Source: Kaistella flava (ex Peng et al. 2021) (GTDB taxonomy: Bacteria; Bacteroidota; Bacteroidia; Flavobacteriales; Weeksellaceae). Taken from it: a stretch of DNA of 64,000 nt. The stretch spans positions 1,736,001 through 1,800,000 of the forward strand of contig NZ_CP040442.1 in NCBI RefSeq assembly GCF_015191005.1. The letters are read 5' to 3'. Both the position numbers and the translations under genes were made by a program. Position 1 is the stretch's first letter, and each line of letters starts with the position of its first letter. The notes beneath the pieces were generated by a model. The model did not search any database and was not told the origin of the DNA. It saw only the letters and a list, made by a program, of their open reading frames with translations. Shown here one piece after another: positions 33,653 through 52,362 of this stretch.

Positions 33653-33739
33653 GGAGAGTTGCCTGAGTGGCCGAAAGGACTTGTTTGCTAAACAAGCGTA
33701 TGGGAAACTGTACCAAGGGTTCGAATCCCTTACTCTCCG
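33653..33739 (+). tRNA. tRNA-Ser (GCT)
   Basis: Acceptor arms GGAGAGT and ACTCTCC with discriminator G; anticodon loop in CTTGTTTGCTAAACAAG reads GCT; long variable arm typical of class II tRNA. No CCA is encoded. Confidence 0.95.
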
Positions 33740-33759
33740 CAACTTAGGAAAAAATTATT

Positions 33760-33834
33760 CGGGGCGTAGCGTAGTCCGGTCATCGCGCCTGGTTTGGGAC
33801 CAGGAGGTCGCAGGTTCGAATCCTGCCGCCCCGA
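33760..33834 (+). tRNA. tRNA-Pro (TGG), copy 1
   Basis: Acceptor arms CGGGGCG and CGCCCCG, discriminator A; anticodon stem-loop CCTGGTTTGGGACCAGG reads TGG. CCA is not encoded. Confidence 0.95.
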
Positions 33835-33954
33835 CTTATAGAAAATTCTTTCGAGAGTTTTATTTAAAAAACTTCATCTTCCCAAAGATAAGTTTAAAAA
33901 TCCCTAAAATTGGGTACTTAGATCAGCTTACAGTTTGAACGAAGTAAAATTTAA

Positions 33955-34028
33955 GGGTGCGTAGCTCAGCTGGATAGAGCATCTGCCTTCTAAGCAGACG
34001 GTCACAGGTTCGAATCCTGTCGCGCTCA
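33955..34028 (+). tRNA. tRNA-Arg (TCT), copy 1
   Basis: Acceptor arms GGGTGCG and CGCGCTC pair with two G-U wobbles; anticodon stem-loop TCTGCCTTCTAAGCAGA reads TCT. Confidence 0.95.
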
Positions 34029-34032
34029 CTAG

Positions 34033-34063
34033 AAAAGATCGAGAATTTTCTCAATCTTTTTTT
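34033..34063 (+). terminator. terminator after tRNA-Arg copy 1
   Basis: Hairpin GATCGAGAA/TTCTCAATC with a T run. Confidence 0.7.
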
Positions 34064-34110
34064 ATTTAATTGCAGAATACATCTATGTAAGAAGGCAATA
34101 TTAGATTTTT

Positions 34111-34185
34111 CGGGGCGTAGCGTAGTCCGGTCATCGCGCCTGGTTTGGGACCAGGAGGTCGCAGGTTCGAATCCTGCCGCCCCGA
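34111..34185 (+). tRNA. tRNA-Pro (TGG), copy 2
   Basis: Identical in all 75 bases to copy 1, 351 bp upstream. A perfect 9-bp hairpin and T run at 34192-34223 follow it directly. Confidence 0.95.
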
Positions 34186-34191
34186 CTTTAT

Positions 34192-34223
34192 AGAAAACTC
34201 CTCAGAGAGTTTTCTTTTTTTTT
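34192..34223 (+). terminator. terminator after tRNA-Pro copy 2
   Basis: AGAAAACTC and its exact complement, then a T9 run. The copy-1 counterpart is weaker. Confidence 0.7.
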
Positions 34224-34268
34224 CAAACATCATCTTCCCAACGATGAGTTTAAAAATCCCAATATTTT

Positions 34269-34342
34269 GGGTGCGTAGCTCAGCTGGATAGAGCATCTGC
34301 CTTCTAAGCAGACGGTCACAGGTTCGAATCCTGTCGCGCTCA
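34269..34342 (+). tRNA. tRNA-Arg (TCT), copy 2
   Basis: Identical in all 74 bases to copy 1, 314 bp upstream. Confidence 0.95.
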
Positions 34343-34346
34343 CTGA

Positions 34347-49290: not shown

Positions 49291-51021
49291 TTAATTTTCC
49301 GAGACAATCATATTAAAGAGTAGATCATATTTATCTCCCAGTTTATGCTTGAGTCGCTGTTTCGATTTCTTCACTGCATCAACAGTAATTCCCAAAAGTC
49401 CTGCTATTTCAGAATTGGCAAAACCTAATTTCCTCAACAAGATAATCCGCAAGCTAGAATCGGTTATTTCTGGGAAACTATCCTGTAAAGTTTGATAAAA
49501 CGTAGCATGCCCTTTTTTAAACTCGCGCTTAAAGCTCAACCAATTTTCTTCGGTCATTAAATGCGATTTTAGGATTTCATCAAGTTTCCCATGCTCTTTT
49601 TCAATGCTCGAAGATTTAGATTCTTTGATATTTTGAATTTCGAGATGAAGTTTTTGAATCTGTATATTTTTCTCCTTTAAAAAATCGATTTGTGAATCGA
49701 GAGTTTTATGAGCTTCTAATAGTTTTTGTTCGTTTCTTAATTTGGCATTTTCATATTCGACAATCCTTTTTTCAGTCTGAATTTTTCTATTCTTTTCTCG
49801 AATTTTCGCATTCATCAATATTAAAACTGCTAACAGAATTAAAAAAACAGCCACAACAAAAATCACATTTTTCCAAAAAGACACTGATGAAAGTCTCTTT
49901 TGAGTATCATCGATATTGTGTTGATATTTTCTTTTTTGCAACATCCAGTTGGCCTGATTCAGTGGAAGCACGCCATCGGTTTTATTGAGAGAATCCTCCA
50001 AAGCGTCTATTCTTCTTCTCACCAATAATTCTTCACCATTCCTACCTTCTTTATAGATAATATGAAGCTTAAGCTTTAAAATTTCAAGTTCATTAATTTT
50101 AAAATACGATTTTGTTTCTGCAATTTCATCCGCTTTCTTGGCTGATATTTTCGCGTCTTCAAGTCGATTTATAGCAATATATAATCTGGTTAAGATTGTA
50201 TAGGCATACATCGAATTTTTATTTCTTCCATTTCGCTCTGAGATTTCAATATCTTCTAAAATTAATTTAATCGCAGTGCGATAATCACGATTTCCTTCGT
50301 AAATTTGCGCTAGATTCCCAAGCGTCTTTGCATATCGAACTTCATCTCCAATCGATTTCGCCAATGAAGAGGCTTCTTCAATATTTTTTTTAGCTTTTTT
50401 TAAATCTCCAGTTCTATAATAATACAATCCCATATTATCTAGAATACTAGCGTAATTGGCAGATTTGGGATTGGTAAATTGCTTTGCTTTTTTTAAATAG
50501 TTCAGAGCCTCCGTATTGTCTCCAATAGTGCCCATATAAAAACCAATTTTCATAAAAGATTCACCTGGAAATAAAATATCTTTAGAATCTAATTGATTAA
50601 TTTTTTCGATTGCCGACATATAAACCGGCAATACCTTAGTCATTTGTCTAAAGTTATAAAGATATTCTGCGTAGCTCAAAATAGCCCAAATCTCCAAAGC
50701 TTCCTGTTTTGATTGCCTTGCACTCTGAATGGACTTTGAATAATAATTATTACTTTTTTCATTAATTCGGTCAAAAGCATTTGCATAACCATTTGCTAGA
50801 AGCGTGTTATATAAAATTTTGTAAGTTTCAGAATTACTATCGTTCAATGGTTGAAGAAAATTCTTAATTGCAACCGTATCGTTACCCATATTTTCTTGCT
50901 GACTGATAATGCCTTCCCAGCCAGAAATATTATTATCAGACACATCTAACCGAATTTTTTGCGCTGGCAAAAAAATAATGCAACCTAACGTAATTAAACT
51001 AAGAAAATATTTTATTTTCAT
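49291..51021 (-). CDS. TPR-repeat transcriptional regulator with membrane helix and LuxR-type HTH
   Basis: The 576-aa protein has a signal peptide-like start (residues 1-21), tetratricopeptide repeats over about 100-330 (for example LDNMGLYYYRTGDLKKAKKN), a membrane helix at 382-403, a coiled coil to about 470 and a C-terminal HTH with GFANSEIAGLLGITVDAVKK at about 533-552. The topology puts the TPR domain outside the inner membrane and the HTH inside, so it could signal across the membrane. Such proteins are widespread in Flavobacteriia, mostly uncharacterised. Two small-RNA-like units with paired TTTGTCC boxes lie upstream, divergent from it. Confidence 0.85.
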   Translation of the reverse strand: MKIKYFLSLITLGCIIFLPAQKIRLDVSDNNISGWEGIISQQENMGNDTVAIKNFLQPLNDSNSETYKILYNTLLANGYANAFDRINEKSNNYYSKSIQSARQSKQEALEIWAILSYAEYLYNFRQMTKVLPVYMSAIEKINQLDSKDILFPGESFMKIGFYMGTIGDNTEALNYLKKAKQFTNPKSANYASILDNMGLYYYRTGDLKKAKKNIEEASSLAKSIGDEVRYAKTLGNLAQIYEGNRDYRTAIKLILEDIEISERNGRNKNSMYAYTILTRLYIAINRLEDAKISAKKADEIAETKSYFKINELEILKLKLHIIYKEGRNGEELLVRRRIDALEDSLNKTDGVLPLNQANWMLQKRKYQHNIDDTQKRLSSVSFWKNVIFVVAVFLILLAVLILMNAKIREKNRKIQTEKRIVEYENAKLRNEQKLLEAHKTLDSQIDFLKEKNIQIQKLHLEIQNIKESKSSSIEKEHGKLDEILKSHLMTEENWLSFKREFKKGHATFYQTLQDSFPEITDSSLRIILLRKLGFANSEIAGLLGITVDAVKKSKQRLKHKLGDKYDLLFNMIVSEN

Positions 51022-51271: not shown

Positions 51272-51292
51272 TTTGTCCACCTTTTGTCCACC
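51272..51292 (+). promoter_or_regulatory. paired TTTGTCCACC boxes, unit 1
   Basis: TTTGTCCACC at 51272 and again at 51283, 11 bp apart, one turn of DNA. They lie 33 bases upstream of the TAAATTTG promoter of small-RNA unit 1, a position suited to an activator. Confidence 0.65.
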
Positions 51293-51339
51293 CAAAAAAT
51301 TTCATTTTATGAATGTCTTATCCCTAAATTTGTAATAGA

Positions 51340-51456
51340 AAAAGAACTAATAACCATTAAAACTTTCTACTAGTTTAAAACGGTTAACTCAATTCAATCA
51401 GACTTATAAAGCACAAATGATGATAAACTCCTCTAACTTCTGTTAAAGGAGTTTTT
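51340..51456 (+). ncRNA. candidate small RNA unit 1
   Basis: A TAAATTTG -7 box (51325-51332) leads about 120 bases to a terminator: AACTCCT (51426-51432) pairs with AGGAGTT (51447-51453), followed by T5. Just before the hairpin the word CACAAATGAT occurs (51412-51421), and an ATG there opens a 9-codon frame (MMINSSNFC) that ends inside the hairpin loop. The same plan recurs 368 bp downstream in unit 2. Either it is a non-coding RNA or it makes a micropeptide. Exact ends are predicted. Confidence 0.6.
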
Positions 51457-51640
51457 AATTCCAGTAATAAAAATTTAATAAAGTTAGATTTAAAATTGCC
51501 TAATTAGTATTCTATTAACGACTGCTTATTTCCTCTAATTAATTAAAATGAGCAACAAATAAAATATTCATCAGTTAAAAACATTAATTTCCAATTGTCT
51601 GATTATCAATAACCTAAAACTTAAATTAAAAACTAAATCT

Positions 51641-51661
51641 TTTGTCCTCTATTTGTCCACC
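51641..51661 (+). promoter_or_regulatory. paired TTTGTCC boxes, unit 2
   Basis: TTTGTCCTCT at 51641 and TTTGTCCACC at 51652, again 11 bp apart and 41 bases before the -7 box, as in unit 1. Confidence 0.65.
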
Positions 51662-51706
51662 CCTATAATTTTAAATTTTCACAGGTATCTTCTAAATTTG
51701 AATTAG

Positions 51707-51803
51707 AAAAAATAAAGCAATAGGTATTTGGAATTGAAAAATTTAAAAACTTAAAAACACAAATGATTTTTTCCTCCTTTAACTTACGTTGAAGGAGTTT
51801 TTT
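51707..51803 (+). ncRNA. candidate small RNA unit 2
   Basis: A TAAATTTG box (51693-51700) leads about 97 bases to a terminator made of CTCCTTT/GAAGGAG with inner AAC/GTT pairs and T6. CACAAATGAT recurs (51758-51767), and the ATG opens a 9-codon frame (MIFSSFNLR) ending in the hairpin. The terminator and the boxes match unit 1, while the middle is freely diverged, as expected for a duplicated regulatory unit. Ends are predicted. Confidence 0.6.
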
Positions 51804-51861
51804 ATTTCTTTCTAGTAGTCAATTTTTATTAGTTCTTTTGACACCTTTAAGTACAATTTCG

Positions 51862-51869
51862 TAAATTTG
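51862..51869 (+). promoter_or_regulatory. -7 promoter box for the hemerythrin gene
   Basis: TAAATTTG with TTTTGACA at about 51836 as -33 element; leader of about 40 bases. Confidence 0.65.
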
Positions 51870-51915: not shown

Positions 51916-52362
51916 ATGAAAAGACATGAAGCCTTAGTACAACTCAGCCGCGACCATCATTTTGGATTACTGCTTTGCTGGAAATTAAAAGAAGGATTAA
52001 AAAGAGAAATTTCGGTAGAAAGAATGTCAAAATATATAGGCCTTTTTTATCAACAAAACCTTAAACCACATTTCGCAGAAGAAGAGGAAACCATTTTTAA
52101 AGTTTTAGGAGAAGAAGATCCATTAATTAAAGAAGCAATTTCACAACACAGAATCTTTCAGAAAATGATCGAAGATGGTTTTAAAACACCAGAACAAATA
52201 GAAGATTTCCGTGCTTTACTCGAACTTCACATCCGAACAGAAGAACGACAAATTTTCCCTGAAATCGAAAAGCAAGCCACGGACAAACAATTAGAGGATA
52301 TTTTAAAATTGGATCATCCAGAATTAAAAGAACCAGAATACGACGATATTTTTTGGAAATAG
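51916..52362 (+). CDS. hemerythrin-domain protein
   Basis: The 148-aa all-helical protein carries a hemerythrin cation-binding pattern: DHHFG near residue 13, PHFAEEEE near 51 (His and Glu), HRIF near 77, and LHIRTEERQIFP near 107. These His and Glu residues hold a di-iron centre that binds O2 or nitric oxide or stores iron. It is cytoplasmic and monocistronic. Its role, oxygen sensing, NO defence or iron handling, is open. It lies beside the small-RNA units but on an independent promoter. Confidence 0.88.
   Translation: MKRHEALVQLSRDHHFGLLLCWKLKEGLKREISVERMSKYIGLFYQQNLKPHFAEEEETIFKVLGEEDPLIKEAISQHRIFQKMIEDGFKTPEQIEDFRALLELHIRTEERQIFPEIEKQATDKQLEDILKLDHPELKEPEYDDIFWK

Follow-up and report, generated by a model that had tools for sequence, protein, structure and literature searches.

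In the sponge principle, a regulated RNA contains the sequence targeted by a repressor and so titrates that repressor, and a dedicated regulator drives paralogous decoys; sponges and decoys of this kind include ChiX with the chb mRNA and RsmY/RsmZ. FopS of Bacteroides thetaiotaomicron is described as a set of multicopy paralogous small RNAs (sRNAs) that bind near the start codons of surface-protein (SusC) mRNAs, block their translation and are antagonised by the protein RbpB, the word 'sponge' being absent from the main text of that paper (PMC11697453). Rfp18 of Flavobacterium psychrophilum is described as a strongly folded sRNA that affects the mRNAs of secreted metalloproteases, with conservation in another genus (PMC9723704). 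Here, we analyze a stretch of 64,000 nucleotides of the Kaistella flava genome (contig NZ_CP040442.1, positions 1,736,001 to 1,800,000; hereafter, the window), where two tandem units, U1 and U2, singled out in an earlier reading of the sequence (the original prediction), lie next to a divergent gene for a tetratricopeptide repeat (TPR) protein. On balance, though with considerable reserve, we consider it probable that U1 and U2 are sponges, driven by a regulator, that would titrate a family of paralogous sRNAs predicted to block translation start sites.

Each unit comprises a box, that is, two direct TTTGTCC repeats separated by 4 nt, followed by a −7 promoter element, a predicted small RNA with a conserved block, and a terminator (Table 1). 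The exact sequence TTTGTCC-N4-TTTGTCC occurs in the window at two sites, the U1 and U2 boxes; the whole 3.7 Mb genome contains these two exact boxes and three with one mismatch (reversed control, 0). Repeat search and alignment gave gapless matches between the two units at the box ends (76% over 46 nt) and at the terminator ends (79% over 53 nt), with a poorly aligning middle; together with direct reading, this bears out the original description of two tandem units of like architecture, with conserved ends and a diverged middle. When compared with Rfam, the window yielded five tRNAs only at the gathering score, and a search of locus L001 up to E 0.5 returned nothing on the units, in agreement with the view that no known RNA family fits; along with the recurrence of the units in relatives, the lack of an Rfam family supports their choice as the best candidate in the window for an undescribed regulatory system. 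The covariance model R1 scores U1 at E = 1.3e-9 and U2 at E = 3.1e-12, both being in its training set. A covariance search of the Weeksellaceae, suggested at the outset, gave R1 matches in at least 116 of 320 genomes (E ≤ 0.01), but among the further loci that were read (L257 to L278), the block is present on the strand shown in L257, L258 and L259, and most of the others are plain CTCC..GGAG-like terminators, so that R1 was relied on for strong matches only.

The original prediction would have been refuted by the lack of a like arrangement in related genomes, but units of this kind are present at the corresponding locus, next to ahcY and the gene for the regulator, in Kaistella genomes G007, G033, G002 (with two copies, like the window), G010, G030, G024 and G006, which together with the window genome (G000) we denote clade A. 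That the promoter follows the boxes was correctly noted, but not the distance (33-41 bases): measured from where the second TTGTCC begins, the −7 element lies 40 or 41 nt away in the nine tabulated units (G002b is given only from the first box, as 51, and G024 has TACATTTA in place of TAnnTTTG). Among the columns that never vary in nine aligned units are TTGTCC in the first box, GTCCACC in the second and AAA.CACAAATGA; the terminator segments CTCCT and GGAGTTT are also invariant once the terminator-less G002a is dropped and G006 (which has ATGG) is added. The proposal that selection acts on the boxes and the hairpin is supported, but it overlooked the word CACAAATGA, which forms the longest run of invariant positions in the transcript; also missing from it were the divergent membrane regulator and the fact that CACAAATGA is complementary to a small-RNA class found across the family. 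Two-sided changes were seen at four terminator pairs; this covariation is thin because, as we read the alignment, three of the changes come from G030 alone and the fourth from G002a, which has no terminator there.

Units of a second type, clade B (G014, G028, G012, G035 and G020), share the box and the promoter and have an RNA with a GGAGC/GCTCC stem enclosing AACACAAA, followed by a CTCC..GGAG terminator; among these, G035 and G020 carry AACACAAAAG, without an ATG. G016 has a further variant unit, and the box of G029 stands before a 103-aa frame. A three-gene operon for secreted proteins lies downstream of the unit in G007 and G014, and in G002 the first unit, which lacks a terminator after the block, precedes the operon.

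The gene divergent to U1 probably encodes the regulator that acts through the boxes, because the box both co-occurs with and adjoins this gene, in Kaistella and in a wider scan. Its product has an N-terminal signal-like helix, TPR helices at residues 31-348, a long helix at 351-465 and a C-terminal helical domain at 479-573; the long helix holds a hydrophobic stretch, judged by eye to be a putative membrane span. Each first unit of clade A is likewise divergent from the gene of a TPR protein, with about 210-260 bp between gene and box. These proteins measure 575-589 aa (537 aa in the G007 gene call) and share the C-terminal helical domain and the hydrophobic stretch within a single long helix. 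The exact box was found in 11 of 36 Kaistella genomes, namely, in 11 of the 16 whose regulator match is stronger than E = 1e-100 and in none of the 20 others (one-sided p = 7.3e-6); with the limit set at E ≤ 1e-10, 18 genomes are positive, including two weak extra matches, and the association persists (p = 5e-5). In two of the 11 genomes, G020 and G035, the exact boxes stand at genes linked to the type IX secretion system (T9SS) elsewhere, off the regulator locus. When relaxed boxes are considered, the regulator locus has one beside the gene in 11 of 16 cases, behind the neighboring secreted operon in 4, and none in 1 (G011, where the match is a 38%-identical protein at another place). No box with up to two mismatches was detected at the ahcY locus in the 5 that were read of the 20 Kaistella genomes outside the group with a strong regulator match. 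Across the family, the exact box is present in 17 of 320 genomes (reversed control, 1), and those of G179 and G249, outside the genus, look like coding sequence.

The Pfam scan of the putative regulator gave TPR families above the cut-off and a weak match to Sigma70_r4_2 (E = 0.016); GerE did not match up to E 1, and no receiver domain was matched. Fold ranking of the C-terminal domain placed NarL/LuxR-type DNA-binding domains first, with weak statistics, which suggests a TPR protein with a helix-turn-helix (HTH)-like domain (TPR-HTH). A PDB sequence search returned TPR proteins and the TPR-like kinesin light chain only. The match to the BT3442 family (NCBIfam NF053779; E = 2.6e-14) scores 52.8, far under the cut-off of 940; BT_3442 is called a TPR protein where a MACPF structure paper mentions it.

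A scan of GTDB contigs for the box yielded 46 stretches, 40 of them from Bacteroidota. With a hidden Markov model seeded on Kaistella regulators only, 17 of the 46 stretches (one of which, L105, is Kaistella) proved to have a regulator open reading frame (ORF) no more than 231 bp from the box, and two matches were located farther off; the remaining box stretches were either cut by the locus edge (4/46) or without a regulator ORF (25/46). TAnnTTTG stands 40-42 nt from the box at 12 of the 46 sites and elsewhere within the next 140 nt twice. An ORF of at least 100 aa begins 55-330 nt past the box in 31 of the 46 stretches, and among the different downstream proteins tested, 11 of 18 passed a T9SS sorting-domain cut-off (9/10 by Pfam; L096 and L109, and L071 again, by NCBIfam); L084 and L087 were under the cut-off, and no such domain was found in L070, L074, L078, L079 and L089.

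Several box loci have features of their own. In L132 and L133 (G020 and G035), a paralogous TPR-HTH gene lies beside a 1274-aa T9SS reprolysin-like protein, the box of which has a period of 12 bp rather than 11 (TTTGTCCACCCCTTTGTCC). In two Mucilaginibacter loci (L088 and L111), the box is between the TPR-HTH gene and a 121-aa protein resembling a stand-alone receiver, a possible non-T9SS output; in Pedobacter sp. MC2016-24 (L085), it precedes a 77-aa frame resembling a stand-alone LuxR-type HTH protein.

The 12-nt block word AACACAAATGAT occurs 253 times in the 36 Kaistella genomes, compared to 7 occurrences of the reversed word. Among 30 places fetched, one per genome, a terminator was on the opposite strand in 13, on the same strand in 7, and on neither in 10. 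The opposite-strand class consists of units ending in ...TTTTTTTTCATCATTTGTGTTTTT-terminator, hereafter A-type RNAs; the window genome has three in tandem, spaced by 172-176 nt (L177), and two single ones. Their 18-nt core, TTCATCATTTGTGTTTTT, was identified in 266 of 320 Weeksellaceae genomes, with up to 13 copies (reversed control, 0), and in 32 of the 34 copies read in 30 fetched loci, a terminator is located within 25 nt of the core. A 16-nt core is present in 67 of 76 family genomes vs. 2 of 319 other Flavobacteriales sampled, with single matches in a few genomes for the reversed control. TAnnTTTG is found no more than 110 nt upstream of 18 of the 34 A-type copies, the background being 119 of 1,585. 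Rfam 15 gave no match on the A-type RNAs in the loci searched, and searches of open-licence papers with words of the RNA motif found nothing related. These observations indicate a second class of predicted small RNAs in the Weeksellaceae, multicopy and partly tandem.

Arrays like that of L177 were seen in G017 (L179), G027 (L180), G006 (L181), G024 (L182) and G014 (L187). In L183, L185 and L186, two copies of AACACAAATGAT 62-78 nt apart and then a terminator form a candidate RNA; a single AACACAAATGAT lies in L240 (window genome) and L162 (G023) between the same neighbors, FKBP-type isomerase-like and zinc-ribbon-like genes. Very short candidate RNAs, with TATATTTG 19-41 nt upstream, AACACAAATGAT and a terminator, were noted in L171 (G000 C1 about 701800), L139 and L155. 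A repeated element, GGGGAAAGYRAAACACAAATGAT, occurs in L174 (G000 C1 about 2162300 and 2163000), L188 (G014) and L146, and in L174 it adjoins Rfam matches to Flavo-1 and Acido-Lenti-1.

Complementarity between the units and the A-type RNAs was measured as the longest exact complement, with 1000 shuffles per unit; for five of the ten clade-A units, an A-type RNA of the window genome served as partner. The lengths are 12 (U1), 16 (U2), 19, 21, 27, 16, 18, 17, 19 and 17 nt. That of U2, to an A-type sRNA of its own genome, was reached by 1 of 1000 shuffles, as were the 16 nt of G030; for the other clade-A units apart from U1, none of the 1000 shuffles reached the observed length. The variant unit of G016 has 16 nt of exact complement (1/1000 shuffles), and among 972 tiles of the window, none reached 16 nt. 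Thus, complementarity to the sRNA core beyond chance, as expected of a sponge, was found in 9 of the 10 clade-A units and in G016, but not, by this measure, in clade B, where G014, G028 and G012 have a predicted duplex at the block with 10 + 10 pairs around one mismatch. RNAduplex energies compared with shuffles were less telling than the length of exact complement.

The survey of candidate targets covered 254 distinct ORFs with a length of 100 aa or more, drawn from 28 Kaistella stretches, namely, the window and 27 loci. The longest complement of a start region to the A-type core, 19 nt, is in a secreted gene of G011 beside its own TPR-HTH gene; at the starts of the first genes of secreted operons, it is 17 nt in G011, 16 in G007, 15 in G031 and 13 in G002, and 13 nt were also found in one non-secreted ORF and one TPR-HTH gene. 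G011 and G031 have the operon without a unit; in other genomes, the operon lies beside units. Signal-like ORFs, as sorted by a crude rule, surpassed the others in start complement (Mann-Whitney p = 1.5e-4), with at least 12 nt in 8/110 vs. 1/144. In addition, the block or a close variant lies between the stop codon and the terminator of secreted genes in G007, G011, G013, G014 and G031 and, outside the genus, 3' of two genes with T9SS-like tails as judged by eye (L258 and L259).

From these sequence patterns, we infer that the units are transcribed, that the regulator binds DNA and that the RNAs pair in the cell, and likewise the sign of the titration and the genes targeted. An activator, most likely the product of the divergent gene, would bind the two TTTGTCC repeats, which are spaced by one turn of the helix and lie 40 nt upstream of the −7 element, and U1 and U2 would be transcribed from activator-dependent promoters as small non-coding RNAs. 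The block before the terminator (TTCTAAAAACACAAATGAT or a near variant in most clade-A members) would pair with the A-type core, UUUUUUUUCAUCAUUUGUGUUUUUAGAA; the A-type RNAs, for their part, are predicted to bind start regions of the ACACAAAUGAUGAAAAAAA kind, seen in secreted-protein genes, and to block translation. With the membrane regulator active, U1 and U2 would titrate the A-type RNAs, and secreted proteins would be de-repressed in trans.

Several points limit this interpretation. U1 has only 12 nt of exact complement to an A-type sRNA of its own genome, and 25 of 1000 shuffles do as well; exact runs in the five clade-B units are only 9-11 nt long, which 33 to 267 of 1000 shuffles reach; the regulator limit of E < 1e-100 was chosen after the list had been viewed; and the A-type RNAs were found through the block, so that independent evidence comes only from complementarity past the first 12 nt and from the context. 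The weakness of U1 in the shuffle test and the late choice of the limit lower our confidence slightly.

Other explanations were weighed against the same data. The units might act in cis, as leaders or attenuators (box, promoter, leader with a start-like AUG, terminator) of the adjacent secreted operon, which would have been lost in the window genome, the leaders being leftovers or cis-only elements. Such a role fits the place of the unit upstream of the operon in G007 and G014, the terminator-less first unit of G002 and the resemblance of the block to the operon's own start regions, but the operon does not follow in G000, G033, G010, G030, G024 and G006, although box, spacing, block and terminator are kept there and the flanks align poorly; moreover, the first operon gene has its own TAnnTTTG in G007, G014 and G002, and leftovers would not be expected to retain 16-27 nt of complementarity to A-type RNAs. 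We regard this alternative as unlikely, albeit worth keeping in view.

Pairing being symmetric and both classes being small units with terminators, the direction could also be reversed, with U1 and U2 as effector sRNAs and the A-type or other CAUCAUUUGUG-core RNAs as their targets or sponges. Against this, A-type RNAs are far more widespread and multicopy, and their complement falls on the start codons of secreted-protein genes, as for a repressor, the U1/U2 block mimicking such starts, which makes the reversed direction quite improbable. That the units encode tiny peptides of 5 to 18 codons from the block ATG seems highly improbable: the block does contain an A-rich start-like region, followed by a short open frame in clade A, but the length and sequence of this frame vary among the members read, and G035 and G020 have no ATG. 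The sponge interpretation of U1 and U2 is, accordingly, retained as the preferred one.

More tentatively, and short of what we would call probable, the data can be extended to a Weeksellaceae-wide network. In it, paralogous anti-start-codon sRNAs, numbering up to about a dozen, would restrain the translation of secreted proteins (T9SS and signal-peptide), and sponges, that is, U1/U2-like RNAs and copies in the 3' untranslated regions at the ends of secreted operons, would release them; the Kaistella TPR-HTH one-component regulator, which elsewhere in Bacteroidota would directly drive T9SS adhesins via TTTGTCC boxes, would have been rewired to the sponge. What the analysis offers is a DNA motif, with a probable regulator, for the membrane TPR-HTH proteins that adjoin T9SS cargo in several Bacteroidota groups, together with a multicopy small-RNA class spread over most Weeksellaceae genomes and unmatched by Rfam 15 in the loci searched. 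The predicted sponge circuit would join the TPR-HTH regulator and its box to the A-type class, and each step gives a reporter or deletion prediction.

Table 1 Coordinates of the U1 and U2 units and associated features (window positions unless stated otherwise).
Feature	Position	Strand	Remarks
Probable regulator gene	49291..51021	-	Divergent to U1; box co-occurrence and adjacency
U1 box TTTGTCC-N4-TTTGTCC, TTTGTCCACCTTTTGTCC	51272..51289	+	11-bp period; putative activator site; spacing fixed across relatives
U1 −7 promoter element TAAATTTG	51325..51332	+	41 nt from second box start
U1 small RNA (predicted)	51339..51457	+	Start placed from −7 element, end from terminator
U1 conserved block CACAAATGAT	51412..51421	+	With the preceding G, one mismatch in the 12-nt word AACACAAATGAT
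U1 intrinsic terminator	51425..51457	+	CTCCTCTAAC..GTTAAAGGAG, then T run
U2 box, tandem direct repeat, TTTGTCCTCTATTTGTCC	51641..51658	+	Sequence reading
U2 −7 promoter element TAAATTTG	51693..51700	+	40 nt from second box start
U2 small RNA (predicted)	51707..51804	+	Both ends predicted
U2 conserved block AACACAAATGAT inside TAAAAACACAAATGAT	51756..51767	+	Copy of CACAAATGAT at 51758-51767
U2 intrinsic terminator CTCCTTTAAC..GTTGAAGGAG	51773..51804	+	CTCCT/AGGAG stem, as in U1
Hemerythrin-domain gene	51916..52362	+	Frequent neighbor, outside units; own TAAATTTG at 51862
Tandem A-type array	L177:480-900 = G000 C1 about 3176380-3176800		Three candidate RNAs in the window's own genome

As in the window, a hemerythrin gene is found near the units in G007, G002, G010, G024 and G006; given the promoter element of its own (Table 1), this gene would not require read-through from the units. 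The word AACTAATAACCATTAAAACT near the U1 5' end (51340-51365) has slightly changed copies in other Kaistella intergenic or pre-gene stretches (L005, L016, L018, L019, L023, L028 and L030). The tRNAs of the window form a Ser-Pro-Arg-Pro-Arg cluster (33653-34343), in which the Pro(tgg)-Arg(tct) pair is duplicated.

Operators of the PhoB/OmpR type have 7-nt direct repeats with an 11-bp period before the promoter. The box agrees with them in repeat length and period, a likeness of spacing only, and the adjacent regulator has no winged-helix match; a PhoB/OmpR-type regulator, the first guess from the 11-bp repeats, was dropped, the adjacent genes being those of TPR-HTH proteins. The putative regulator resembles NarL/LuxR-type HTH proteins, with weak statistics, in its C-terminal domain but differs in the TPR part and the predicted membrane span, and in having no match to a GerE or receiver domain. 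Literature searches in open-licence papers found no described DNA motif for membrane TPR-HTH proteins; for words of the TTTGTCC box, the titles among the matches listed were unrelated, which does not establish absence from print.

Sponges are a known kind of regulator, and a circuit of the type predicted here, in which a TPR-HTH membrane regulator makes a sponge for a paralogous sRNA family, was not found among the matches listed in searches of open-licence papers. Compared to ChiX/chb and RsmY/RsmZ, the U1/U2 decoy would titrate antisense sRNAs under a predicted regulator that combines TPR repeats, a putative membrane span and an HTH-like domain. As a possible homologue of the units, Rfp18 was set aside solely on its description as a strongly folded RNA from another genus (PMC9723704). 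A FopS-named Rfam match was absent on 13 loci up to E 0.5, the presence of FopS in the Rfam copy being unchecked. FopS, as described (PMC11697453), comes from another class of the phylum and differs from the A-type RNAs in predicted targets; both have several paralogues per genome and a single-stranded seed stretch just before the terminator, with start-site blocking only predicted for the A-type, and by this analogy in presumed working, rather than by family membership, FopS is the closest known concept.
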